Source: a virus. Taken from it: a DNA stretch of 26,043 bases. The position numbers and the translations under genes are program-made. This document shows, in pieces, positions 7,663 to 23,748 of this stretch; within the stretch, counting starts at the first letter, position 1, and each line of letters opens with the position of its first letter. The stretch spans positions 1 through 26,043 of the IMG/VR virus record IMGVR_UViG_3300043313_000300. One strand, written 5' to 3'. Under the pieces are notes generated by a model. That model searched no databases. It was not told the DNA's origin and worked only from the letters and a program-made list of their open reading frames with translations.

Positions 7663-9080
7663 GCGATCTCGTCAATGGCCTGAACGCTCTCTACGACGCC
7701 CAGGACGCATACGACGAGGCCCAGAAGTTCTATGACGGGTCCGCGCCGGAGATCTGGACCTCACGTCGCCTGGAGCGCATGCTCCGAGGAGCGACGGGCA
7801 AGTTCCGGGTCAACTGGGCGCGTACGACCGTCACCGCTGTCCTTGATCGACTAGAGATCAACGCGGTCACTTCGACCGTCGAGGCCGAACAGGCCGCGAT
7901 CGAGGCGATCTGGGCTGACAACCTCCTCGGGCTCGAAGCTCCACTCGTGCACGAGGACGCCCTGGAGTTCGGTGACTCGTACGTGATCATCGGAGCGGAC
8001 GAGGACGAGAACGAGATCGAGTTCCGTGTCCACGGCCCGGACGAGGTCCGGATGTTTTACGAGCGCGAGAACCCGCATAAGGCCAAGTACGCGATCAAGG
8101 CGTGGACGGTGGACTCGGGCACCCTGGAGCGGCTCCGCGTGAATCTCTACTACGAGGACAAGATCGAGAGGTGGATCTCGATCCAGAAGGTCGGAGATCA
8201 CTTCGACGACGACAGCTTCCAGAAATTCATCGACGAAGAGGGCGACGAGTGGCCCGAGGAAAACGATCTTGGCGAGCTGCCGGTCTTCCACTTCCGGACC
8301 CGCTTCCCGTACGGCCGCCCCGAGCACAAGGACGCGTACGGCCCTCAGAACATGCTGAACAAGCTCGTCGCTACCCAGATGGCAGCGGTCGATTTCCAGA
8401 CCTTGCCACAGCGGTACGTCCTCCAGGAGGTGGGCACCGCTGAAGCGGGGGCCGCGCCAGCCGACGACGACTTCGACGACGAGCCCGCCAACACGACCAT
8501 GATCACCGACCCGAAGCTGGTCAGCTCACCGGGCTCGGTTTGGTGGCTGCCTGGAGCCAAGGGCGCGGGGCAGTTCGACCCGGTCGATCCGAAGTCCTTC
8601 CTAGAGCCGATCCGCGAGTACGTGAACGCCATGGCGACCACGACCTCGACCCCGCTTCACCTGTATCAGCTCGGCGGCCAGCCTCCGACCGGCTTATCGC
8701 TCAAGCGGGCGGAGATGCCTCTCCTCCACAAGGTCGGGCTCCGTCAACTGTTCTTCGGTCAGGTCTGGAAGAACGCGATCGCATTCGCGCTCCGGCTGGC
8801 TGGGATGGACGTTGACCCCGAGACGATTCAGGTCACCTGGAAGCCAGCGTCGCTCACCGACGAAAAGGACACATGGGACACCTTCGGGCTCAAGCGGGCC
8901 ATGGGCGTTCCACGTCGCCAGATCTTGATGGAGGCGGGATACACTGCCGACCAGTGCGACACTTGGGGATTCACCGAGGAGAACCCGGACGGCCCCGAGC
9001 CTGAGCCTCAGCCAGACCCGAACGCTGATCCGGATCTAGCGGCCGACGACACAAGGGAGAAACCAGACGATGGCGCGTAA
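7659..9080 (+). CDS. portal protein (SPP1 gp6-like)
   Basis: A 473-residue portal, the dodecameric ring at the capsid vertex through which DNA enters and leaves. It matches the SPP1 gp6 family: an N-terminal helical start ('NGLNALYDAQDAYDEAQKFYDG'), 'NWARTTVTAVLDRLEI', a beta-rich middle with acidic 'GADEDENEIEFRVHGPDE', 'NMLNKLVATQMAAVDFQTLPQ', and the helical crown segment 'STPLHLYQLGGQPPTGLSLKRAEMPLL', typical of actinophage portals. The C-terminal 40 residues are acidic and Pro-rich. The start is a GTG at 7659 with GAAGGCGAG upstream. Its end overlaps the scaffold gene by 11 bases. Confidence 0.9.
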   Translation: MSDLVNGLNALYDAQDAYDEAQKFYDGSAPEIWTSRRLERMLRGATGKFRVNWARTTVTAVLDRLEINAVTSTVEAEQAAIEAIWADNLLGLEAPLVHEDALEFGDSYVIIGADEDENEIEFRVHGPDEVRMFYERENPHKAKYAIKAWTVDSGTLERLRVNLYYEDKIERWISIQKVGDHFDDDSFQKFIDEEGDEWPEENDLGELPVFHFRTRFPYGRPEHKDAYGPQNMLNKLVATQMAAVDFQTLPQRYVLQEVGTAEAGAAPADDDFDDEPANTTMITDPKLVSSPGSVWWLPGAKGAGQFDPVDPKSFLEPIREYVNAMATTTSTPLHLYQLGGQPPTGLSLKRAEMPLLHKVGLRQLFFGQVWKNAIAFALRLAGMDVDPETIQVTWKPASLTDEKDTWDTFGLKRAMGVPRRQILMEAGYTADQCDTWGFTEENPDGPEPEPQPDPNADPDLAADDTREKPDDGA

Positions 9081-9684
9081 GACCAGTTCCGAGAAGCAAG
9101 CGGCCGACGTCGAGCCCGATGAGGATGAGGACGTCGAGCCCGACGAGGACGAAGACGAAGAGGACGACGAGGACGAAGACGAGGAAGACGAGTACAAACC
9201 CCCGACCAAGGAAGAGTGGGCCAAGACTCAGACCGCGCTGAAGAAGGCCAACACCGAGGCCAAGCGGTTCCGCACTGAGCTTCGCACGGCTCGCGAGAAG
9301 GCCAAGGACACCGCTGGCGCGGACCCTGACAAGGCAGCGGCCAGGGTCGAGGCCAAGTGGAAGCCGCGTGTCGTACGCGCTGAAGCTCGCGCCGCGCTGG
9401 CCAAGGCTGGAGCTAGGGCATCCGCCCTCACCCGGCTGGCCCGGACCATCGACCTCGACGACGTCGACGTGGATGAAGACGGCGAGGTCACTGGCCTGGA
9501 CGATTTGATCGAGGACTTAAAGGACGATCTCCCCGAGCTGTTCCGCGACGAGGACGACGAAACTCCCCCGCCCAAGAAGCGGCGACTCGGCAAGACCGAC
9601 GCGGGCGCGAAGGGCTCATCGAGCAATGGCGCGAAGCCCAAGTCCAGCTCGGAACGGCAAGCCGCCTCGATTCTTGGTCGCTGA
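9070..9684 (+). CDS. scaffold protein, polyacidic N terminus
   Basis: A 204-residue protein in the standard scaffold slot between portal and capsid. It opens with 'MARKTSSEKQAAD' and an almost unbroken Asp/Glu run (about residues 14-41), then a long coiled-coil-like helix rich in Ala, Lys, Arg and Glu (about 46-115), a second acidic segment ('DLDDVDVDEDGEVTGLDDL'), and a basic, Ser-rich C terminus ('PPPKKRRLGKTDAG' onward). Scaffolds of this kind guide capsid assembly and then leave or are degraded; the basic tail is the usual capsid-binding element. No prohead protease is encoded nearby. Identified by position and composition, since scaffolds diverge fast. Confidence 0.78.
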   Translation: MARKTSSEKQAADVEPDEDEDVEPDEDEDEEDDEDEDEEDEYKPPTKEEWAKTQTALKKANTEAKRFRTELRTAREKAKDTAGADPDKAAARVEAKWKPRVVRAEARAALAKAGARASALTRLARTIDLDDVDVDEDGEVTGLDDLIEDLKDDLPELFRDEDDETPPPKKRRLGKTDAGAKGSSSNGAKPKSSSERQAASILGR

Positions 9685-9977: not shown

Positions 9978-10901
9978 ATGACACGGGCAAACGTAGACGC
10001 CTGGATTCCAGAAGACTGGTCCAGCAAGGTCTATACCAAGATCATCGCGAACTCCGCGATCGAGGCTCTCGCCACTCCGGTCCCGATGACCGCAGACAAC
10101 AAGCATCTCCCGCGCTCGGCTGGCGTTGGCATCAACGTGACTGCCAAGGGCCAGGCGTACCTCGAAGACACGCTGACTGACGACGAGATCATCCTGACCG
10201 CTCGCAAGCTGACCCGACTGGTCCGGCTGGCGGAAGAGGATCTCGACGACCTGAGCGGCTTTATCAGCGTTCTGGACGTGAAAAAGTCCGACTGGGCCGG
10301 GTCATACGCCCGATTCCTGGACAATGCCTGCCTCGGTGTAACAGCAGCGGAGAACGGGACGACCATCCCCTTCACCTCGCTGTACAACCGGCTGACGACC
10401 ACGGATGCGACCACGGGCTACACCGCGAACGCGAACCGTGTTCAGTCGCTGACGGCTACGCCGCTCACCTATGACAACTTCAATGACACTCTCGGTCTAT
10501 TGGAGCAAGGCGACTACTACGACGAGTCCAACCTCTTCGTCGTCGCCCATCCGTACTACAAGAAGGCGATGCGAGGCATCAAGGACACTTCGAACATCCC
10601 GATCTTCGAGGTCGGCAAGGCGGGCATCCCGTCCACCCTGTTCGGCCTGGACATCAAGTGGAGCATCGGGGCCAAGACCAACGCGACCGCATCCGTTGCT
10701 CCGTCCGGTAACCCGCTTCTCTTCGTGGGCAACCGCGAGCACCTGGTCCTCGGAAAGCGTTCCGGCCCCGAGTCCGTCGTGATCGACGGCCGCTCCGGCG
10801 CATCCGCGACTACCGACGAGACATTGCTGAAGCTCCGCGCCCGGCGCGCCTTCGGCACTGTGTTCCCGCAGGCCTTCGCGGTTCTGGAAGACATTCCCTG
10901 A
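9978..10901 (+). CDS. major capsid protein (HK97 fold)
   Basis: A 307-residue HK97-fold capsid subunit. Recognisable parts are the N-terminal 'WIPEDWSSKVYTKIIANSAIEAL', the beta segment 'VGINVTAKGQAYLEDTLTDDEIILTARKLTRLVRLAEEDLDD' whose pattern is typical of the E-loop and spine helix region, the A-domain motif 'NLFVVAHPYYKKAMRGIKD', and 'PSTLFGLDIKWS', the usual 'lfG.pv..s' strand. The length is that of a mature capsid subunit, with no extra N-terminal delta domain, which agrees with a separate scaffold gene. Translation should be strong: AAGGAGATC at an ideal distance before ATG 9978. A 12-bp hairpin follows the stop. Confidence 0.92.
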   Translation: MTRANVDAWIPEDWSSKVYTKIIANSAIEALATPVPMTADNKHLPRSAGVGINVTAKGQAYLEDTLTDDEIILTARKLTRLVRLAEEDLDDLSGFISVLDVKKSDWAGSYARFLDNACLGVTAAENGTTIPFTSLYNRLTTTDATTGYTANANRVQSLTATPLTYDNFNDTLGLLEQGDYYDESNLFVVAHPYYKKAMRGIKDTSNIPIFEVGKAGIPSTLFGLDIKWSIGAKTNATASVAPSGNPLLFVGNREHLVLGKRSGPESVVIDGRSGASATTDETLLKLRARRAFGTVFPQAFAVLEDIP

Positions 10902-10991: not shown

Positions 10992-11582
10992 ATGGCCAAG
11001 ACCAAAAAGGACCAAGACGTCGACGTGACGCTGGAAGTCAACGAGCACGGAACTCTCGCCGGGACAGCCCCGGTCGGCCGTAGTGACGGCGAGTACGAAG
11101 ATGTCGATCCCGCGCTGTACGTATCGACCCGGACCCCGGACAGTGAGACGGTCTCGAAGACCTACACCAAGAAGTTCATCGCTCGCGCCGTCGACTGGGA
11201 GTCGATCCAGGCCGGAGGCGAGGAGTACGAGGCAGCTCAGCACAACGCGAACATCACTGCGACGCGGGCGGCCGCGCTTCAGTCCGGCCTCGTGCCCGTC
11301 GAGGACAGTGGCACGTTCTTCGACGTGGAGAAGCTCCCCGAGGCCAGCGTTGCTCTGGTCTATACCGTCCAGGTCGTACCCAACAATGACGACGCGCCTC
11401 AGACCTACGTGAACCCGAACGACGTACTCAAGGCCCAAGATCCCAGCGAGCCCGGCTGGGCTCCTCAGACCACGGGCGAGTCTCGTCGGGACCCCGGCCT
11501 TCAGGCCCGGAACGACCCGGACGCGAAGTGGACTCAGCCGGAGCCCGTACACGTGACCGACATCGAGGCGGCTAAGGCCTAA
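10992..11582 (+). CDS. hypothetical virion protein, 196 aa
   Basis: An unrecognised 196-residue protein directly after the capsid gene. It begins with a Lys/Asp-rich segment ('AKTKKDQDVDVTLEVNEHG'), has a helical middle ('AGGEEYEAAQHNANITATRAAALQSGLV'), and a long Pro/Asp/Gln-rich C-terminal tail ('DPSEPGWAPQTTGESRRDPG') that looks disordered. Its ribosome site is strong (AAGGAG at 10981-10986). Position suggests a head-associated protein such as a decoration or accessory structural protein, but no family is evident. Its stop overlaps the next start (TAATG). Confidence 0.65.
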   Translation: MAKTKKDQDVDVTLEVNEHGTLAGTAPVGRSDGEYEDVDPALYVSTRTPDSETVSKTYTKKFIARAVDWESIQAGGEEYEAAQHNANITATRAAALQSGLVPVEDSGTFFDVEKLPEASVALVYTVQVVPNNDDAPQTYVNPNDVLKAQDPSEPGWAPQTTGESRRDPGLQARNDPDAKWTQPEPVHVTDIEAAKA

Positions 11583-12010
11583 TGGCTCAGTTCGCCTTCA
11601 ACGTCGGCAAGCTGGAGATAGCCAAAGGTCGAGCCAACGCTGGCTCGACCTCTCTCCGGGCGTGTCTGATCTATGGCACCAAGACCGGCATCGTGGCGAC
11701 ACTTACGACCATGGCCGCGATCGATGCGATCACCTCGGTCGTCTTGTCGACTGAGCGTGTGACAATCGCCTCGGTCACTGCCATCGCTGATCAGACCGAT
11801 AACCGAGCTGAGATCGACGCGGCGACGTTCGCCTTCGTGGCTGACGCTGGCCAGGTCGCGCTCGCCCTGGTCCTGTACGACGCAACGGTCAACACCGACG
11901 ACACGACCAGAACCCCGATCGGGTTCTTCGACACGAACTTCGGAGCCGGGATCGCGATGGACGGCGGGCTCAACGTCACCATCCCGACCGAACTCCTCTA
12001 CGTGGCCTAG
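11582..12010 (+). CDS. probable head structural protein, 142 aa
   Basis: A 142-residue protein of Ala/Thr/Val-rich, strand-forming composition without charge clusters, cysteine pairs or membrane helix. The N terminus 'FAFNVGKLEIAKGRAN' and the C terminus 'NFGAGIAMDGGLNVTIPTELLYVA' resemble short virion proteins in actinophage head modules, possibly decoration or fibre-base proteins. The start shares an A with the preceding stop (TAATG). The gene forms a run with the next two genes, all with similar hydrophobic-alternating composition, which suggests that their products are parts of one capsid appendage; that is inference from order and composition. Confidence 0.65.
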   Translation: MAQFAFNVGKLEIAKGRANAGSTSLRACLIYGTKTGIVATLTTMAAIDAITSVVLSTERVTIASVTAIADQTDNRAEIDAATFAFVADAGQVALALVLYDATVNTDDTTRTPIGFFDTNFGAGIAMDGGLNVTIPTELLYVA

Positions 12011-12012
12011 CC

Positions 12013-12477
12013 ATGGGCGACCATCTAGTCGGCGGCCGGACTATAGCCACGGCCGCAACCGCGAACCATGTCGTCGCCCAGTTCTGGAACCCGCACTCGA
12101 CCTCGCGTATCTGGGTCACCGCGATCGACTTGTGCGCGATCACGGGCGCGGCCCTGTCGAGCATTACGCTGAGGCGATCGAGTGCAAAGGGCGCGACCCC
12201 GAGCGCGACCGAGACACCTGATCTCGACAACGCCTTCGAGCGTGACAATGCCAACGCGGCGGGCATGCTGTTGGAGCTGGCCACGTTCACCACTCAGCCC
12301 ACCCTGGACGCCTCGATCTTGTGGCGATGGTCTCTTCCTGCGTCCATAGGCGCGGGCTTCATGAAACCCTTCGGAAGACCCGGAATCGCTATTCCTCCTG
12401 GCACCGGGCTGTGCATCGTCAACGCGGGAGCTGTGCTGACTCCGGCCTCGGACGTTTCCTTTTCCTTCGCGGTGTAG
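12013..12477 (+). CDS. probable virion protein, 154 aa
   Basis: A 154-residue protein with beta-type alternation: 'ANHVVAQFWNPHSTSRIWVTAIDLCAI', 'AALSSITLRRSSAKG', 'ASILWRWSLPASIGAGFMKPFGRPGIAIPPGTGLCIVNAG' and 'SDVSFSFAV'. The layout, including 'PGIAIPPGTGLCI', is that of small jelly-roll-like modules in phage virion proteins that give a cytokine-like trimer surface. No catalytic motif. It starts 2 bases after the previous stop with little ribosome site, so it is translated by coupling. It is followed by the repeat protein gene. I infer a structural, perhaps fibre-cap, role. Confidence 0.6.
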   Translation: MGDHLVGGRTIATAATANHVVAQFWNPHSTSRIWVTAIDLCAITGAALSSITLRRSSAKGATPSATETPDLDNAFERDNANAAGMLLELATFTTQPTLDASILWRWSLPASIGAGFMKPFGRPGIAIPPGTGLCIVNAGAVLTPASDVSFSFAV

Positions 12478-12492: not shown

Positions 12493-13629
12493 ATGCCCGC
12501 CTATCGCATCGGCAATAACACTTACGCACAGCAGACTCTTTCAGGCGCGGCTCAAGGCGGTATCGAGAACGTCGCATCCGCGAATGGCTCCGGCCAGTTC
12601 GGAGTCGTCGAGCCTTCAGTCATGCCGGAAGGCGCAGCCGCTGGGACCATGTTCCTCGGTGCGCCCGATGTAGGCGTCCCGAATGTTGATCTTGATCCGA
12701 TCCAGGTAGATCTCAGCCTCGGGACGGTGGTCGCGACCCCGACCGTCGCCCTGAGCCCGATCACTGTCACGCTCGGTCAGGGAACCGTTCTCGCGACGCC
12801 CAGCGTCGCCCTGAGCCCGATCACGGTCACGCTTGGCCTAGGTACCGTCCTTCCCGCTGCGCCTCCGCCCAGCGTCGCCCTGTCCCCGATCACGGTCACT
12901 CTCGGCCTCGGGACCGTCGTCGGGACGCCCAGTGTCGGCCTGTCCCCGATCACTGTCACTCTCGGGCTCGGCACGGTCAGCGGTCGACCCAGCGTCGGGC
13001 TGTCTCCGATCACGGTCACGCTCAGCCTCGGGACCGTCTCAGCTCGACCGACTGTCGGCCTCTCTCCGATCACGGTGACGCTCGGCCTCGGGACGGTCTC
13101 CGCTCGGCCGACTGTGGGCCTCTCTCCGCTCACTGTGACGCTCGGCCTAGCCGACCTCAGCCCGGCCATTCCCGGAGGCGGAGCGGTCGCCCTGTCCCCA
13201 ATCACGGTGACTCTCGGGCTCGGGACGGTTTCCGGTAAGCCCAGCGTCGGACTCAGCCCGATCTCGGTCGGGCTTGGCCTCGGGACGGTGTCACCACGGC
13301 CTAGTGTCGGGCTCTCCCCGGTGACACTGTCTCTTGGCCTTGGGACGGTCTCACCCCGGCCCAGCATCGGCCTGACTCCGATCACGGTCACGCTCGGCCT
13401 CGGGACCGTCCAACAGCTCACGGTCCCGGTCGCCAACGTTCAGCTCGCGCCGATCACGTTGAAGCTGGTCGTCCGCGCCCTTCACTTCCACACAGACATG
13501 TACGAGATCCTCCTCGTCCTGGACCGTGCGCCCGAGTTGGTCAGCCTCGATCGAGCGGCCTCGGCCGTTAGACTGGACGAGTCCGGGAGCATGGCTCCCC
13601 CTGATCGTCCGGTAGGTCTGCTGATATGA
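12493..13629 (+). CDS. 20-residue-repeat beta protein, candidate head fibre
   Basis: A 378-residue protein. Residues 1-64 form an N-terminal region with a Gly/Ala-rich end; residues 65-327 consist of twelve full and one degenerate copies of a unit with core 'VGLSPITVTLGLGTV' and a 5-residue Pro-containing linker ('SARPT', 'SGRPS', 'VATPT'); the final 50 residues ('HFHTDMYEILLVLDRAPELV' and after) do not repeat. Alternating Val/Leu/Thr with regular Pro and Gly predicts a stack of short beta strands, a beta-solenoid or beta-prism rod. There are no charged residues in most units. Position after the capsid genes favours a head fibre or capsid-surface rod; a tail fibre is less likely. The spacing is broken at residues 120-127 and 220-231 by insertions of 3 and about 4 residues. 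Confidence 0.75.
   Translation: MPAYRIGNNTYAQQTLSGAAQGGIENVASANGSGQFGVVEPSVMPEGAAAGTMFLGAPDVGVPNVDLDPIQVDLSLGTVVATPTVALSPITVTLGQGTVLATPSVALSPITVTLGLGTVLPAAPPPSVALSPITVTLGLGTVVGTPSVGLSPITVTLGLGTVSGRPSVGLSPITVTLSLGTVSARPTVGLSPITVTLGLGTVSARPTVGLSPLTVTLGLADLSPAIPGGGAVALSPITVTLGLGTVSGKPSVGLSPISVGLGLGTVSPRPSVGLSPVTLSLGLGTVSPRPSIGLTPITVTLGLGTVQQLTVPVANVQLAPITLKLVVRALHFHTDMYEILLVLDRAPELVSLDRAASAVRLDESGSMAPPDRPVGLLI
12685..13473 (+). repeat. about 13 tandem 60-bp coding repeats
   Basis: DNA repeats in phase with the reading frame, mostly 60 bp per unit, with one 69-bp and one 72-bp interval. The conserved core reads like 'ctgtccccgatcacggtcac' and 'ctcgggctcgggacggtc' with silent third-base changes. 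Protein is conserved better than DNA, so the repeats are kept by selection on the protein rather than being recent copies. Recombination between units could change length. Confidence 0.85.
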
Positions 13630-13946
13630 GGAAGCTGTACGTCGGCCAAAAGCCAGCGACGCCTCTCGTCCTGAATGTCTCCGACACTCAGGGTCAGCCG
13701 CTCGTCCTCTCGGAGTGGACCGCTTACCAGGTCTTGATCAAGAGCCCGACCGGGGCCATGATCAACGATGTGACGGCCAATGTCACCATCAACGGGAGCA
13801 AAGCGATCTATACGTGGGGCACGAACTCGATCTTCACTGAGCCGGGCGACTGGCATTTCCAGCTCAAGCTGGCCAAGTCCGGTCAGGTGGCCGATTATTC
13901 CTCGATCGTTACCATCGAGGTCCTTCCGAGTCTGGAGACACCGTGA
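13626..13946 (+). CDS. BppU N-terminal-like or Ig-like small protein, 106 aa
   Basis: A 106-residue beta-sandwich-type protein: 'YVGQKPATPLVLNVSDTQGQPLVL', 'AYQVLIKSPTGAMINDV', 'ITWG'-like strand 'KAIYTWGTNSIFTEPGDWHFQLKLAKSG' and 'SSIVTIEVLP'. The order of strands, starting with a Gln before a Pro-x-x-Phe/Leu strand and ending in 'G.y.f.l......YSSIVTIEV', resembles the BppU N-terminal domain found in phage baseplate proteins and in small proteins of actinophage head genes. Function is not certain: it could be a decoration protein that binds the repeat protein encoded just upstream, with which its start overlaps (ATGA). Confidence 0.6.
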   Translation: MRKLYVGQKPATPLVLNVSDTQGQPLVLSEWTAYQVLIKSPTGAMINDVTANVTINGSKAIYTWGTNSIFTEPGDWHFQLKLAKSGQVADYSSIVTIEVLPSLETP

Positions 13947-14392
13947 CCAACATCATCACCCCGACCGAGGTCGCGGACGTCGTCGGGATCTCAGTCGATG
14001 CAACCGCGATCGCTCGCGCTCAGGCCGTCATCGAGTTGATCATGGACGTGAACCTGAGCGACCCGGTCATCTTCGCGGACAACCTCCTGAGGGATCAGCG
14101 ATCGCTGAAGCGGGCCGTGATGTGGCAGACCGGATTCCTCGACGAGCACCCGGAGGCTCTTACTCGTGCCCCTGACGTCGCCTCCGCGAGGTCGAACGAT
14201 AACGCGGTGATCTTCCGCGAGGGCGTCGAGTCGGGCTACCTGAGCCCGCTGGCGGCCAAGGCACTCTCGCGTCTGAGCTGGTATGGCCGGACCGGAGGGA
14301 CCTCGATCCCGACCCCGGTCGACATGTACGCGGCGAATCTGGCTCAGGACACCGTTAACGACGAGGGCTTCCCTCCGTGGAGCCCGCTATGA
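13943..14392 (+). CDS. head-to-tail connector (adaptor)
   Basis: A 149-residue, mainly helical protein in the connector slot. It opens with 'IITPTEVADVVGISVDATAIARAQAVIEL', close to the start of gp6/gp15-type adaptors ('t...v....g......i..A...v'), has 'LKRAVMWQTGFLDEHPEAL' in the middle, and ends with a 'LSPLAAKALSRLSW' helix and an extended tail. Such proteins form a dodecameric ring under the portal. GTG start at 13943 with GGAG upstream at 6 bases. It overlaps the next gene by ATGA, as expected for adaptor-stopper pairs. Confidence 0.75.
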   Translation: MTNIITPTEVADVVGISVDATAIARAQAVIELIMDVNLSDPVIFADNLLRDQRSLKRAVMWQTGFLDEHPEALTRAPDVASARSNDNAVIFREGVESGYLSPLAAKALSRLSWYGRTGGTSIPTPVDMYAANLAQDTVNDEGFPPWSPL

Positions 14393-20400: not shown

Positions 20401-20684
20401 AGGGGATGGGCTACCCAGGTGGGTCGGGAATCTGGCAGCAGGGTGACGCAGCTCGCGGAGGGAACGGGCTGGCGACTGGAGGCACGGTCAATCAGGCGGG
20501 CTGGGCTAAGGTTGGGGAGCGCGGCGAGGAGATGATCCGGGCCAACAAGGGAGACAAGGTGACCCCGCTGAACCAGCCGATCTCGATCCAGCTCAACCTC
20601 GGTGACGATCTCCGCTACATCATTCAGGGACAGATCGACGACAATAACGAGTTCCATGCTGGGATCGGGAGGCTGAGCCGCTAA
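17427..20684 (+). CDS. tape measure protein with peptidase-like segment
   Basis: A 1085-residue protein that sets tail length and is ejected with the DNA. Residues about 75-115 are hydrophobic and followed by 'MKGLTDLAIEMGAKTSFSAQGAADAMMALAKGGM', the TP901-type tape measure signature; long Ala/Lys helices fill the middle. Near the C terminus 'SGSSHAGDAIDTQ' (His948, Asp954) and 'WGHHIHAIP' (His985, His987) resemble the zinc sites of M15-type D-Ala-D-Ala peptidases, which would help cut the cell wall. ATG 17427 has AGGAGG at 17413-17418 with an 8-base spacer; the GTG at 17418 overlaps that site and is rejected. Stop overlaps the next start (TAATG). Confidence 0.93.
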   Translation: MAFGSLAELYVEVKPDTSKFGPRLVRDLERKYRRGISIPVRPDTRRFAAEVSRTATHAGKAAGRSYNTAFNKTASKYSSGINRGLSGVAGIAGRIFTTAAKAAAIGVVAATAAVGVGLAKATNKAGAFDKTMRLAGTTMKATSGQMKGLTDLAIEMGAKTSFSAQGAADAMMALAKGGMKPAQIQAGALKQTLTLASAGGLELGNAADYMVRGLGAFHLKAKQASRVASALAGAANASTGTVENMGLALQQVAATAASSGQSIEETTAALAAFDNAGIRGSDAGTSLKTMLARLVPMTEKAKGKFKELGLITEDGANQFFKANGEMKSITQIAGILDKALGGLSTQQRISAMNTLFGSDATRAATILMNEGSDGLAKYVKATSDRAAAEKLAKTATEGYAGALERIKGSIETVQIIGGKEFLPGITDALNGVSKWLEKNQGAIKTVFSVAAGALEAFGETAEVVLGGFLSDLSGGKDFKSFADNLAQNQVEIATWGVNAIDTFIAVGQGVVGWVTPFLDSLASANIGAALFMETTIGLMENLKVIAEYTGNFIGANMLGNAIEQSKGQAKAFRDSAASTNELATSLKTGLTPALEKARNRAAAMRDTAIAKAETREATYALSRAIDKVGKSGDVAKNKLLNYNIASGEGTKAQRAFGSRVLAVRGRMIDQALAGIKAGDSQKELTKRWQDGKDALYREFRQMGFSKKRAQELTDKYGKIPGKSETKITQPGMSKARQDTKDLDNKINGLNNRTVKIMVALGKQGFSRQGLQETVDRRVRHGGRLAGGGRLDGPGTGTSDSILGVEAGTHEAIARVSKGEWVVNAKSSEKYDELLSDINADALAGGGKIRQNVKVNTSHPARAMGAIPGQVDSVADAMATRTWKAYQKVIEKMGGGIGHGSKKHVRWHGGTFTERYANTLKAAQKADGKYLPVIQGGFRPRTSFSGSSHAGDAIDTQWNSSRLSAMNRKGSYAWHRTPSQGPWGHHIHAIPKKGMGYPGGSGIWQQGDAARGGNGLATGGTVNQAGWAKVGERGEEMIRANKGDKVTPLNQPISIQLNLGDDLRYIIQGQIDDNNEFHAGIGRLSR

Positions 20685-22579
20685 TGGGTTCCAACATCCT
20701 GACCAACCTGATCGCGACAGCCGTCTCCGAGACCGCCCCGACGCTGAACCAGAACTCCAACCTCAAGCTCGGTGTCCGCGACTTCACGGCCAAGGACTCC
20801 AACGCTTACGTCTACTGGACCCGGAACTTCCCGCTCAAGGCGACGATCCTCTCCGCCAAGCTCGTCTTCTACACACTGAACGAGGCGGGGTCGGGGACCC
20901 GTGGCTTCAAGTTCACCCGGCTGGCAGTCGGTTTCTCCGACTCCAAGGTCGTATACAACACGCGCCCGGTGACCTTCATCGCGGGCGACAAGACTGTCTC
21001 CGACGTGCTCCCGTGGCTCGACAAGAAAAAGTGGGAGCTAGACATCACGGACTGGATGCAGTCCATCGCCAACGGCGGGCCCTGGTCCGGCTTCCGGATC
21101 GTCCCAACCGTCCCCGAAGACAATGTCCTCTGGATCTACTCCGAGCTATGGACCGACCCGGCCTTCCGTCCTCGAGTCGAGGTCACCTGGTCCGACGCGC
21201 CTGGTACTCCGACAGGGCTGTCACCGGCCGGCGGACGAGCGGTCGGGGTCGCGAAGCCTGTCGTTAAGGCTCAGTTCGTCGACGTCTCCGGCTCGGTCGC
21301 TCTCCAGTCGGTCCAGGTCCAGCTCAACGCGACCGACGCATGGTCGGCCCCGACGTACGACTCCGGCGCGGTCCCTTGGCCGGTCCCCGAGTTCGACCTG
21401 AACAACCCGCCGAGCCCGGCTCCCGCGTACGCCGGACTCGCGGACGGGGCGACGACCTTCTGGCGGATTCGCTTCCAGGATGGGGCCGGGATCTGGTCCC
21501 CCTGGTCGGCCGCGACCACGTTCAAGCGGGACGACAAAGGCGTCCTGACGCTGAATAACCCGCCCTCGGGGACCCCGAAGGTCGAGGACGCGACTCCCCC
21601 GATCTCGTGGACCTTCACGGGTGAGACCCAGTCGGCCTACCAGATCCAGATCAAGCACAAGGTGAACAATGTCGATCAGATCGACTGGGATACGGGCAAG
21701 CTCACATCCGCGATCACCTCGCTGACGGTCCCGACTGGCAAGATCAACGAGCCGACCAACACCACGTACACGATCACGATCAAGATCTGGGACACCAAGC
21801 AACGCGAGGGCACTCCCGGAGATCCGCCGTACGTCGAGATCGTCCGCGACTTCACCTTCATCCCTGGAGCCACGACCGGGACCACGGCTCTCACAGCCGT
21901 GCCCGACGCTGGCGGGAAGCCCAAGGTCGTCCTGACCTGGCAGGCGGCCACGTTCCCCGATCGCTTCAACATCCTGCGATACGGCACTGGCGGCTCCCCG
22001 AAGGTGATCGCGGCCTCCCTCGACCCGAACGACACCTTCGTCTCAGGCACGACGCACACCTGGATCGATCGCACCCCGAGCCCCAAGCGATCGCTGACCT
22101 ATGCGGTCCAGCGGGTCGTGAACGACATCGCCTCGACGACCAACGCAACGGCGATCGCGACGGTCAACTCTCGCGGACGTTGGCTTCAGGAGCCGATTTC
22201 TGGCCTGGAGCTGTTTATCGGGTCCAAAGAGGACGTCGAGATGGCCCTGAACGCGACTGAGAGCGTCCTCCAGGGCATCGCGCCCGATTCCGTGCCCGTG
22301 GCTATCAATCAGTCCCAGGGCGGCCTGGAGGGCACCATGGCGGGCCTCCTGACTACTACCCCGGACGGCACGACGGCGCAGCAGTGGCGCGATATCTATA
22401 TGCAGCTTCGCCGGATGCGGGTCAAAACGCTCTACCTGACCATGGACGACTACACCTTCGCGGTCGTCGCCCAGGAGTTCACGTACGCCCGGAAGATCAA
22501 ATCGCCCCGGCTGGCGTTCGAGATCAGTTTCAAGTTCTACCAACAGGACTCGATTAACTCGATCTTGCTCGGGAGCTGA
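20684..22579 (+). CDS. minor tail protein with DNRLRE-like and FN3-like domains
   Basis: A 631-residue protein just after the tape measure, the place of distal tail or tail-tip proteins. Residues 1-165 look like a DNRLRE-type beta domain ('TILSAKLVFYTLNEAGSGTRG', 'WELDITDWMQSIANGGPWSGFRI'), a module otherwise typical of cell-surface proteins. Next come beta-sandwich repeats, with 'TTFWRIRFQDGAGIWSPWSA' as a fibronectin-like strand set (about residues 170-500). The C-terminal 120 residues ('WLQEPISGLELFIGSKEDVEM', 'FEISFKFYQQDSINSILL') are mixed alpha/beta and probably the tail-binding part. A tip adhesin or distal tail role is inferred. The TAATG overlap couples it to the tape measure gene. 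Confidence 0.75.
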   Translation: MGSNILTNLIATAVSETAPTLNQNSNLKLGVRDFTAKDSNAYVYWTRNFPLKATILSAKLVFYTLNEAGSGTRGFKFTRLAVGFSDSKVVYNTRPVTFIAGDKTVSDVLPWLDKKKWELDITDWMQSIANGGPWSGFRIVPTVPEDNVLWIYSELWTDPAFRPRVEVTWSDAPGTPTGLSPAGGRAVGVAKPVVKAQFVDVSGSVALQSVQVQLNATDAWSAPTYDSGAVPWPVPEFDLNNPPSPAPAYAGLADGATTFWRIRFQDGAGIWSPWSAATTFKRDDKGVLTLNNPPSGTPKVEDATPPISWTFTGETQSAYQIQIKHKVNNVDQIDWDTGKLTSAITSLTVPTGKINEPTNTTYTITIKIWDTKQREGTPGDPPYVEIVRDFTFIPGATTGTTALTAVPDAGGKPKVVLTWQAATFPDRFNILRYGTGGSPKVIAASLDPNDTFVSGTTHTWIDRTPSPKRSLTYAVQRVVNDIASTTNATAIATVNSRGRWLQEPISGLELFIGSKEDVEMALNATESVLQGIAPDSVPVAINQSQGGLEGTMAGLLTTTPDGTTAQQWRDIYMQLRRMRVKTLYLTMDDYTFAVVAQEFTYARKIKSPRLAFEISFKFYQQDSINSILLGS

Positions 22580-22581
22580 CC

Positions 22582-23748
22582 GTGATCAATCTCGGCCTCT
22601 CTTCAGCGGATTTGAAGCTGTTCCAGACCAGTCTCTACACGCCTCCGGGGTACAACCTGAAGGTGACGGTCCAGATCCTCGATCTGAATCACAACTACAT
22701 CTCCGACGTGTCCCGACTGCTCATCGGCGGCCAGGTCAACAAGTCGTTCTGGGACATCGTGACGTCCGGCGCGACTTTGGAGCTGAACGATCCGGACAAT
22801 CAGGTCGGCTTCGATACGGCCAACCCGAGCGAGGGCGCGCTCTACATGGACCGGATGATCAAGATCGTTTACTCGGTCTATTCCAACATCCTCCCCAAGT
22901 GGGTCGACGTCCCGCTGTTCTGCGGCCCCGTGATCAAGGTGGCCCGCGACGACGCAATCGTGTCGATCGAGGCTCAGGGCAAGGAGGCCCTCTGGGTCGC
23001 GCCTCAGATGGCCTGGACCTCCAAGACCTACCCGAAGGGATACCGGCTCACCTCCGCGATTCGGGACCTTCTCGGAGACAAGGGAGGCGAGAAGCGGTTC
23101 GACCTCCCCGAGTGGACACGTGGGCTCAAGAAGGATTACTCGCTCAAGACCGAGACGCCGACTTGGGACATGGCCCGGAAGCTGGTCGGTTCCCGGCTGA
23201 TTCAGCAACTCTTCTATGACGGGCGCGGGTATCTCCGGCTCCGCACCTGCCCGACGACGCCGGTCTTCACCTTCTCTGAAGCGGTGATGACGACCGTCCC
23301 GAAGCTCGTCTTCGAGTCCGACGCGGTCCGGAACACGGTCCGGGTCAAGGGGGCCACGCCTGAGGGCAAGGCCCAGCTCGTGGGAGTGGCCGAGCTACCC
23401 TCGACCGATCCGTCCGGCTCGACGACGCTGGGCGTCGGCGGCAAGAAGCGACGCCTCGTGGAGTTGATCGAGGACGCGGACCTCAATACTCAGGGCGAGG
23501 TCGACGGGGAGGCTAAGGACACGATGGAGTCACTCGACCTCCAGAACATCACCTTCGACTTCGACTCCTTCCCGATCCCCCACCTGGAACAGGGCGATGT
23601 GTTCAACGCCTCGACCCGCGACTTCGCTCGCAACCTCCGGGCCAAGAACTTCTCGATCCCGCTCAAGCAAGAAGACGGCGGGACGCCACAGACCAACGGG
23701 ACGTATCGACGCCTGGTCCCGACGACCAGGAAGAAGCGCAAGAAATGA
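22582..23748 (+). CDS. minor tail protein (tail hub-like)
   Basis: A 388-residue protein likely to form the tail-tip hub. N-terminal strands 'LKVTVQILDLNHNYISDVSRLLIGGQVN', with 'TSGATLELNDPDNQVGF', match the first domain of phage hub proteins of the gp27/Gp44-like fold, where a Asp/Asn rich loop 'DPdN' follows a strand. A middle domain contains 'IVSIEAQGKEALW', another typical strand of this class, and the end is strongly basic ('RRLVPTTRKKRKK'). GTG 22582 with GGGAG and a 6-base spacer. No catalytic motif is seen. Confidence 0.75.
   Translation: MINLGLSSADLKLFQTSLYTPPGYNLKVTVQILDLNHNYISDVSRLLIGGQVNKSFWDIVTSGATLELNDPDNQVGFDTANPSEGALYMDRMIKIVYSVYSNILPKWVDVPLFCGPVIKVARDDAIVSIEAQGKEALWVAPQMAWTSKTYPKGYRLTSAIRDLLGDKGGEKRFDLPEWTRGLKKDYSLKTETPTWDMARKLVGSRLIQQLFYDGRGYLRLRTCPTTPVFTFSEAVMTTVPKLVFESDAVRNTVRVKGATPEGKAQLVGVAELPSTDPSGSTTLGVGGKKRRLVELIEDADLNTQGEVDGEAKDTMESLDLQNITFDFDSFPIPHLEQGDVFNASTRDFARNLRAKNFSIPLKQEDGGTPQTNGTYRRLVPTTRKKRKK

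Follow-up and report, generated by a model that had tools for sequence, protein, structure and literature searches.

A repeat-built protein as the probable shaft of a neck fibre in an exchangeable slot between phage capsid and adaptor genes

What is a protein made almost wholly of a single 20-residue motif doing between the capsid and neck genes of a phage? The window analysed here, the whole 26,043-nucleotide stretch of the IMG/VR virus record IMGVR_UViG_3300043313_000300, has its terminase, portal and tape measure genes placed as in a siphophage. On the plus strand it encodes a capsid scaffolding protein (9070–9684), the major capsid protein that anchored our comparisons (9978–10901), a 196-residue protein in the first position after the capsid gene (10992–11582, a similar-sized gene occupies this position in most relatives), a phrog_644 protein (11582–12010, E 1.3e-5), a 154-residue protein (12013–12477), the 378-residue repeat protein in a single open frame (12493–13629), a 106-residue BppU/Ig-like protein (13626–13946) and the head-to-tail adaptor or connector ring (13943–14392, matching phrog_22288, which is common to annotated adaptors). 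Two side observations concern this map: the scaffolding protein gene contains a short acidic tandem repeat at 9106–9191 (GACGAGGACGAA), and a 631-residue protein (20684–22579) matches phrog_37549, of the head-and-packaging class, yet lies past the tape measure gene. We propose, with a probability of about 0.62, that the repeat protein forms the shaft of a fibre at the neck (collar), carried on the BppU/Ig-like protein as a mount at the head–tail adaptor, where it would help adsorption. The role would be ordinary and the build unusual, as the fibre consists only of repeats and two short ends.

The array (12685–13437) comprises 12 units of 20 residues, with units 3, 8 and 12 lengthened to 23, 24 and 24 residues by 3, 4 and 4 extra residues. 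It is preceded by 64 N-terminal residues without a known domain (12493–12684) and followed by a degenerate 13th unit (13438–13497, VQLAPITLKLVVRALHF) and a charged C-terminal tail up to 13626. Together the 13 units cover residues 65–335, starting at residues 65, 85, 105, 128, 148, 168, 188, 208, 232, 252, 272, 292 and 316; 11 of them are well conserved, unit 1 having diverged, around the core VxLSPITVTLGLGTV (consensus V-[GA]-L-S-P-I-T-V-T-L-G-L-G-T-V-S-x-x-P-[ST]). A preliminary description made from the sequence had counted twelve to thirteen copies interrupted by insertions of 3 and 4 residues; 13 units and both insertions (units 3 and 8) stand, and the third break, in unit 12, had gone unmentioned. 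Identity of the protein with itself at lag 20 is 0.554, against 0.116 ± 0.020 in 2000 shuffles (shuffle maximum 0.191), and a degenerate DNA core (YTNNNNCCNATHNNNGTNNNNYT) was counted 10 times in the window, against an expectation of 0.08. The codon differs in 47.5% of 760 aligned identical-residue pairs between units, and the core positions L3, P5, V8 and L10 are constant despite varying codons. Because the residues are the same and the codons differ, the array is old and has been maintained by selection on the protein. Third-position G+C of the gene (0.76) is slightly lower than that of its neighbours (0.77–0.84). An antisense open frame of 219 residues across the array (12777–13436, minus strand) was judged a by-product of the GC-rich repeat. 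A second IMG/VR assembly, 99.994% identical over 15,427 bases, carries the same array with no insertion or deletion.

Composition within the unit is as regular as its length. The array is almost uncharged, as had been described, with 10 charged residues in 251 (residues 65–315), many of them Arg at unit position 18, compared with 14 in the last 63 residues of the protein. Hydrophobic residues occupy unit positions 1, 3, 6, 8, 10, 12 and 15 with Thr, Ser and Gly in between, an alternation that fits a two-faced strand, and Thr-x-Thr is present in 9 of the 13 units.

Searches of Pfam, PHROGs, NCBIfam and PDB sequences returned no family or relative for the repeat protein, in agreement with the earlier impression of an unrecognised family, and tblastn against INPHARED phage records found no relative either. 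Its sole other copy in IMG/VR belongs to the further assembly of the same phage. Scans of IMG/VR and the GTDB genomes with the unit pattern yielded, besides this phage, single, unrelated or out-of-frame chance matches only. At the sensitivity used, the 20-residue unit thus appears private to one phage in IMG/VR, INPHARED and the GTDB genomes. Matches on Pantoea and Erwinia plasmids were dropped: the one examined (H30) adjoins a replication initiation gene, in a stretch with no annotated genes, and was put down to repetitive DNA translated by chance. Translated repeats near the replication gene of a Pantoea agglomerans plasmid (L114) are 41% identical to the array and were taken as DNA repeats read by chance.

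The array was folded alone with AF2 from a single sequence, leaving out fragment pile A4, in which each copy aligned to itself. The model has one strand of about 10–12 residues in most units (pLDDT about 60–73), no helix and disordered ends, the N-terminal 64 residues among them. The regular beta structure anticipated earlier is thus what the monomer model gives, and the array model speaks against a disordered chain. Foldseek with this model returned nothing significant (E above 1). VIA-align placed it on parallel beta-solenoids (beta-helical antifreeze protein 3p4g, Z 17.8; HxuA, Z 13.1; VacA p55, Z 12.7), scores that repeats inflate and that imply no homology; single-sequence models of near-perfect repeats, moreover, tend toward solenoids. 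With low confidence, the array may therefore be described as a beta-solenoid-like rod. With one rung per unit, such a rod would be about 6 nm long (13 × 0.48 nm); extended as in trimeric spirals, it would be several times longer. A far more speculative idea, to which we give very little weight, is that a beta-solenoid with an outer Thr-x-Thr ladder binds a regular surface such as a polysaccharide lattice, ice or a mineral, or assembles with itself in the manner of a functional amyloid; if it did, the neck fibre would be an adhesive without any lectin domain.

Low complexity, lack of charge, the disordered ends of the model and the lack of any database relative would also suit a minor repeat protein, partly disordered or prone to aggregate, that acts as a spacer or as a packaging or assembly aid and plays no part at the virion surface. 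Against this, old repeats with synonymous divergence point to selection on the protein, and the gene overlaps that of the BppU-like mount, so that we regard such a role as improbable.

Gene order in relatives bears more directly on the question. The major capsid protein shares 37–51% identity with its counterparts in Streptomyces and Microbacterium phages. We compared annotated phage records and 80 IMG/VR loci with a related capsid protein; the counts given below cover 66 loci. From the capsid gene to the adaptor gene there is one ordinary gene, joined in some phages by a large appendage gene. Judged from this gene order, the repeat gene sits in an exchangeable appendage slot. Tail fibres occupy it in phage KimJongPhill (gp15, phrog_16641, E 1.7e-75) and locus L018 (E 3.6e-9). 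Others hold polysaccharide deacetylases (PF01522, E 1.2e-9 in L019 and 1.8e-8 in L062, and L046 alike by reading) or pectin-lyase-like proteins (phrog_32881, E 5.5e-16 in L055; by reading of the sequence in L048, L071, L074 and L082). An N-terminal stretch, MTATGYTSGDPNKV...GDTMTG, is common to most of the relatives' slot proteins and absent from the repeat protein. The pectin-lyase-like spike genes (L055:6249–8702, L074:10519–13617, L048:10736–12727, L071:11134–13026 and L082:4452–6257) accompany an adaptor with a fused Ig-like domain, and their products are probable neck-mounted depolymerases. The deacetylase genes in the neck slot are of NodB type (L019:7335–8834, L062:5822–7366, L046:9851–11455). 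L018:10989–12129 has tandem Ig-like genes, one separate (122 residues) and one fused to the adaptor.

Adaptors of appendage-bearing relatives are either extended at the N-terminus by an Ig-like domain or immediately preceded by a gene for an Ig-like protein. Such a domain was found on or beside the adaptor in 15 of 15 loci with a slot protein and in 2 of 51 without (L012 and L073), for which Fisher's p of 5e-13 overstates the association, as the loci are kindred and kinship was not corrected for. On the capsid tree, 10 slot changes and 9 Ig changes were placed; of five supported independent contrasts, about four agree and none runs the other way, a number too small for significance by itself. 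KimJongPhill and its sister Zuko illustrate the pattern: their capsid proteins are nearly the same, and the former has both the fibre and an Ig–adaptor fusion (257 residues) whereas the latter has neither (adaptor of 156 residues). KimJongPhill gp15/gp16 (Zukovirus) and the pectin-lyase and deacetylase relatives resemble our locus in the slot, in the Ig-like domain joined to the adaptor and in its optional presence, and differ in having an Ig domain that is part of the adaptor chain and shows no detectable sequence kinship to the 106-residue mount.

This pattern also bears on a capsid-surface decoration, in which the rod would bind the capsid lattice together with the two small proteins encoded before it. 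The repeat gene does lie among capsid genes, separated from the capsid gene itself by three small ones. However, relatives of the capsid protein occur without such a protein or with unrelated spikes, which speaks against any need for the capsid surface, and the presence of a slot protein tracks the Ig domain on the adaptor. We consider the decoration unlikely. The capsid-surface array offered in the preliminary description thus gives way to an attachment at the neck (head–tail adaptor), the place to which the 66 relatives point.

The partner on which a neck fibre would sit is encoded immediately downstream. The mount gene starts at 13626, 4 bases before the end of the repeat gene (ATGA), consistent with the co-translation that had been suggested. 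An AlphaFold model of the mount with seven relatives is a confident beta-sandwich (pLDDT 83, pTM 0.72). The best structural matches are a phage 80alpha baseplate chain (Z 8.2) and the NF5 baseplate (Z 7.5); TP901-1 BppU (4v96, residues 19–128) scores Z 6.6, and BFVD matches include proteins named BppU domain. Antibody and filamin domains score Z 6–7 in the same match list. The predicted fold thus bears out the earlier BppU/Ig-like assignment, which is safe as a fold class; closer kinship with BppU is supported chiefly by gene context. Pfam (E 1) gave no match for the 106-residue protein, hence none to BppU_N, and a genome-collection search with the mount alignment also returned no match. No sequence similarity was detected between the mount and the Ig domain fused to adaptors (hhalign probability 1.5; HMM E about 5), and the case for its docking on the adaptor accordingly rests on position and fold.

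Relatives of the mount are gp9 of the Streptomyces satellite phage MiniFlayer (annotated tail fiber; 25% identity, E 1e-8) and proteins of the IMG/VR contigs L097–L106 (30–35%), and their genes always lie directly after a long fibre gene and directly before the adaptor gene; the 4-base overlap of fibre and mount genes recurs in L099–L106. MiniFlayer (gp6–gp9) and L097–L106 share with our phage the order phrog_644 protein, long fibre, BppU-like mount and adaptor, and their mount, adaptor and phrog_644 protein are homologous to those described here. MiniFlayer gp6 matches phrog_644 (E 2.4e-44). Direct BLAST of the 11582–12010 product against gp6 gave no match, and their kinship is drawn from the PHROG that both match; the product is a probable member of the appendage module. 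The 12013–12477 product, between the phrog_644 and fibre genes, had no relative in the collections searched and would belong to the module by position. For MiniFlayer, an adsorption module has been proposed that comprises a tail fibre gene and the three hypothetical genes next to it, and transmission electron microscopy showed short fibres and attachment to the neck of the helper (PMC10690885). The earlier suggestion that four neighbouring proteins form one head appendage holds insofar as the neighbouring genes act as one appendage module in MiniFlayer and its relatives.

The fibres themselves differ. Those of the MiniFlayer type have 1376 residues (MiniFlayer) or 1841–1871 (L100, L103 and L105), with LamG lectin domains (PF13385, E 2e-34 in L100; E 2e-18 in MiniFlayer gp8) and sparse VxVxPMTGSGT-type repeats, whereas the repeat protein has 378 residues, repeats only and, by Pfam, no LamG. 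The VxVxPMTGSGT-type motif is enriched in MiniFlayer (6 against 0.7 expected). We do not claim homology of the unit to these motifs, as the unit HMM scores MiniFlayer no higher than shuffles. A profile of the conserved LamG-fibre C-terminus (QVIVYLHHVDPIVYL type) was not found in the repeat protein; a weak pairwise likeness to the LamG-fibre motif, EILLVLDRAPELVSLDRA, was equalled by 21 of 500 shuffles. As to the contigs of 11–19 kb from which the L097–L106 proteins come, several small ones show the MiniFlayer-like order of a phrog_644-like protein (L105), a LamG fibre of about 1850 residues, BppU-like mount and adaptor; G+C is about 0.35–0.37 in L100 and L105. They may be unrecognised relatives of the MiniFlayer satellite that carry this neck-fibre module too.

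Baseplates are where BppU-like mounts are best known (PMC6669499), and the fold would suit a tail-tip or baseplate fibre that is encoded in the head–neck region by chance. In MiniFlayer-type phages, however, the same mount gene lies directly before the adaptor, and MiniFlayer lacks a long tail, its short fibres being podovirus-like (PMC10690885); the tail genes of our phage follow the adaptor and include structural genes of their own at 20684–23748. A fibre at the tail tip is therefore very unlikely.

In lactococcal phages a BppU-type sandwich has been modelled as a collar ring from which stalks project with exchangeable carbohydrate-binding or pectin-lyase-like tips (PMC6669499), and tip exchange of this kind has been described (PMC10684548). 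Our module would function similarly, with the mount on the adaptor and a fibre that can be exchanged. The neck passage structure, or collar whiskers, of the lactococcal 936 and TP901-1 phages resembles our locus in using the BppU N-terminal sandwich as mount on the connector ring and in its exchangeable distal parts, some of them pectin-lyase-like or esterase-like as among the slot relatives (PMC6669499). It differs in joining mount, coiled-coil stalk and tip in one chain, whereas our phage has a separate mount gene (12493–13629 for the fibre, 13626–13946 for the mount), a beta-repeat stalk and no recognised tip. The predicted fold of the separate 106-residue protein corresponds to the lactococcal-type sandwich, with other Ig-like folds scoring nearly as high. 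Neither a coiled-coil stalk (array model) nor a C-terminal carbohydrate-binding or lyase domain (Pfam, PHROGs and NCBIfam) was found in the repeat protein. The gp12 neck appendages of phi29 are likewise collar appendages with an enzymatic or binding role (PMC9863714), likened here by description, with no sequence relation claimed.

From the observed position, partner family and co-occurrence we infer how a neck fibre would be assembled and used. The 106-residue protein would dock on the adaptor ring in place of the relatives' adaptor-fused Ig-like domain, as its position, size and fold suggest. The mount would in turn be bound by the repeat protein through its charged C-terminal tail, a docking that the 4-base gene overlap and the MiniFlayer-type gene order make probable. 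The 13 uncharged units are modelled, at low confidence, as stacking into a beta rod with the alternate hydrophobic residues inside and Thr, Ser and Gly outside. The rod would project at the collar and could aid adsorption through its regular Thr-rich face and the N-terminal 64 residues; alternatively, it may be a spacer that bears a small partner, for instance the 11582–12010 or the 12013–12477 product. No LamG or other receptor-binding domain was recognised, so that this reading has to assume a shaft lacking a known tip.

The comparison ties a repeat protein of unknown family, built from a compact, very regular beta unit for which the collections searched gave no relative, to a recognisable and exchangeable neck-appendage slot in phages from Streptomyces, Microbacterium and metagenomes. 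A module of mount plus fibre would be common to a long-tailed phage and MiniFlayer-type satellites. The comparison also offers a testable rule, by which a neck appendage is to be expected where an Ig-like or BppU-like domain stands at the adaptor, and the slot yields candidate enzymes and adhesins that would act at the neck rather than at the tail tip.
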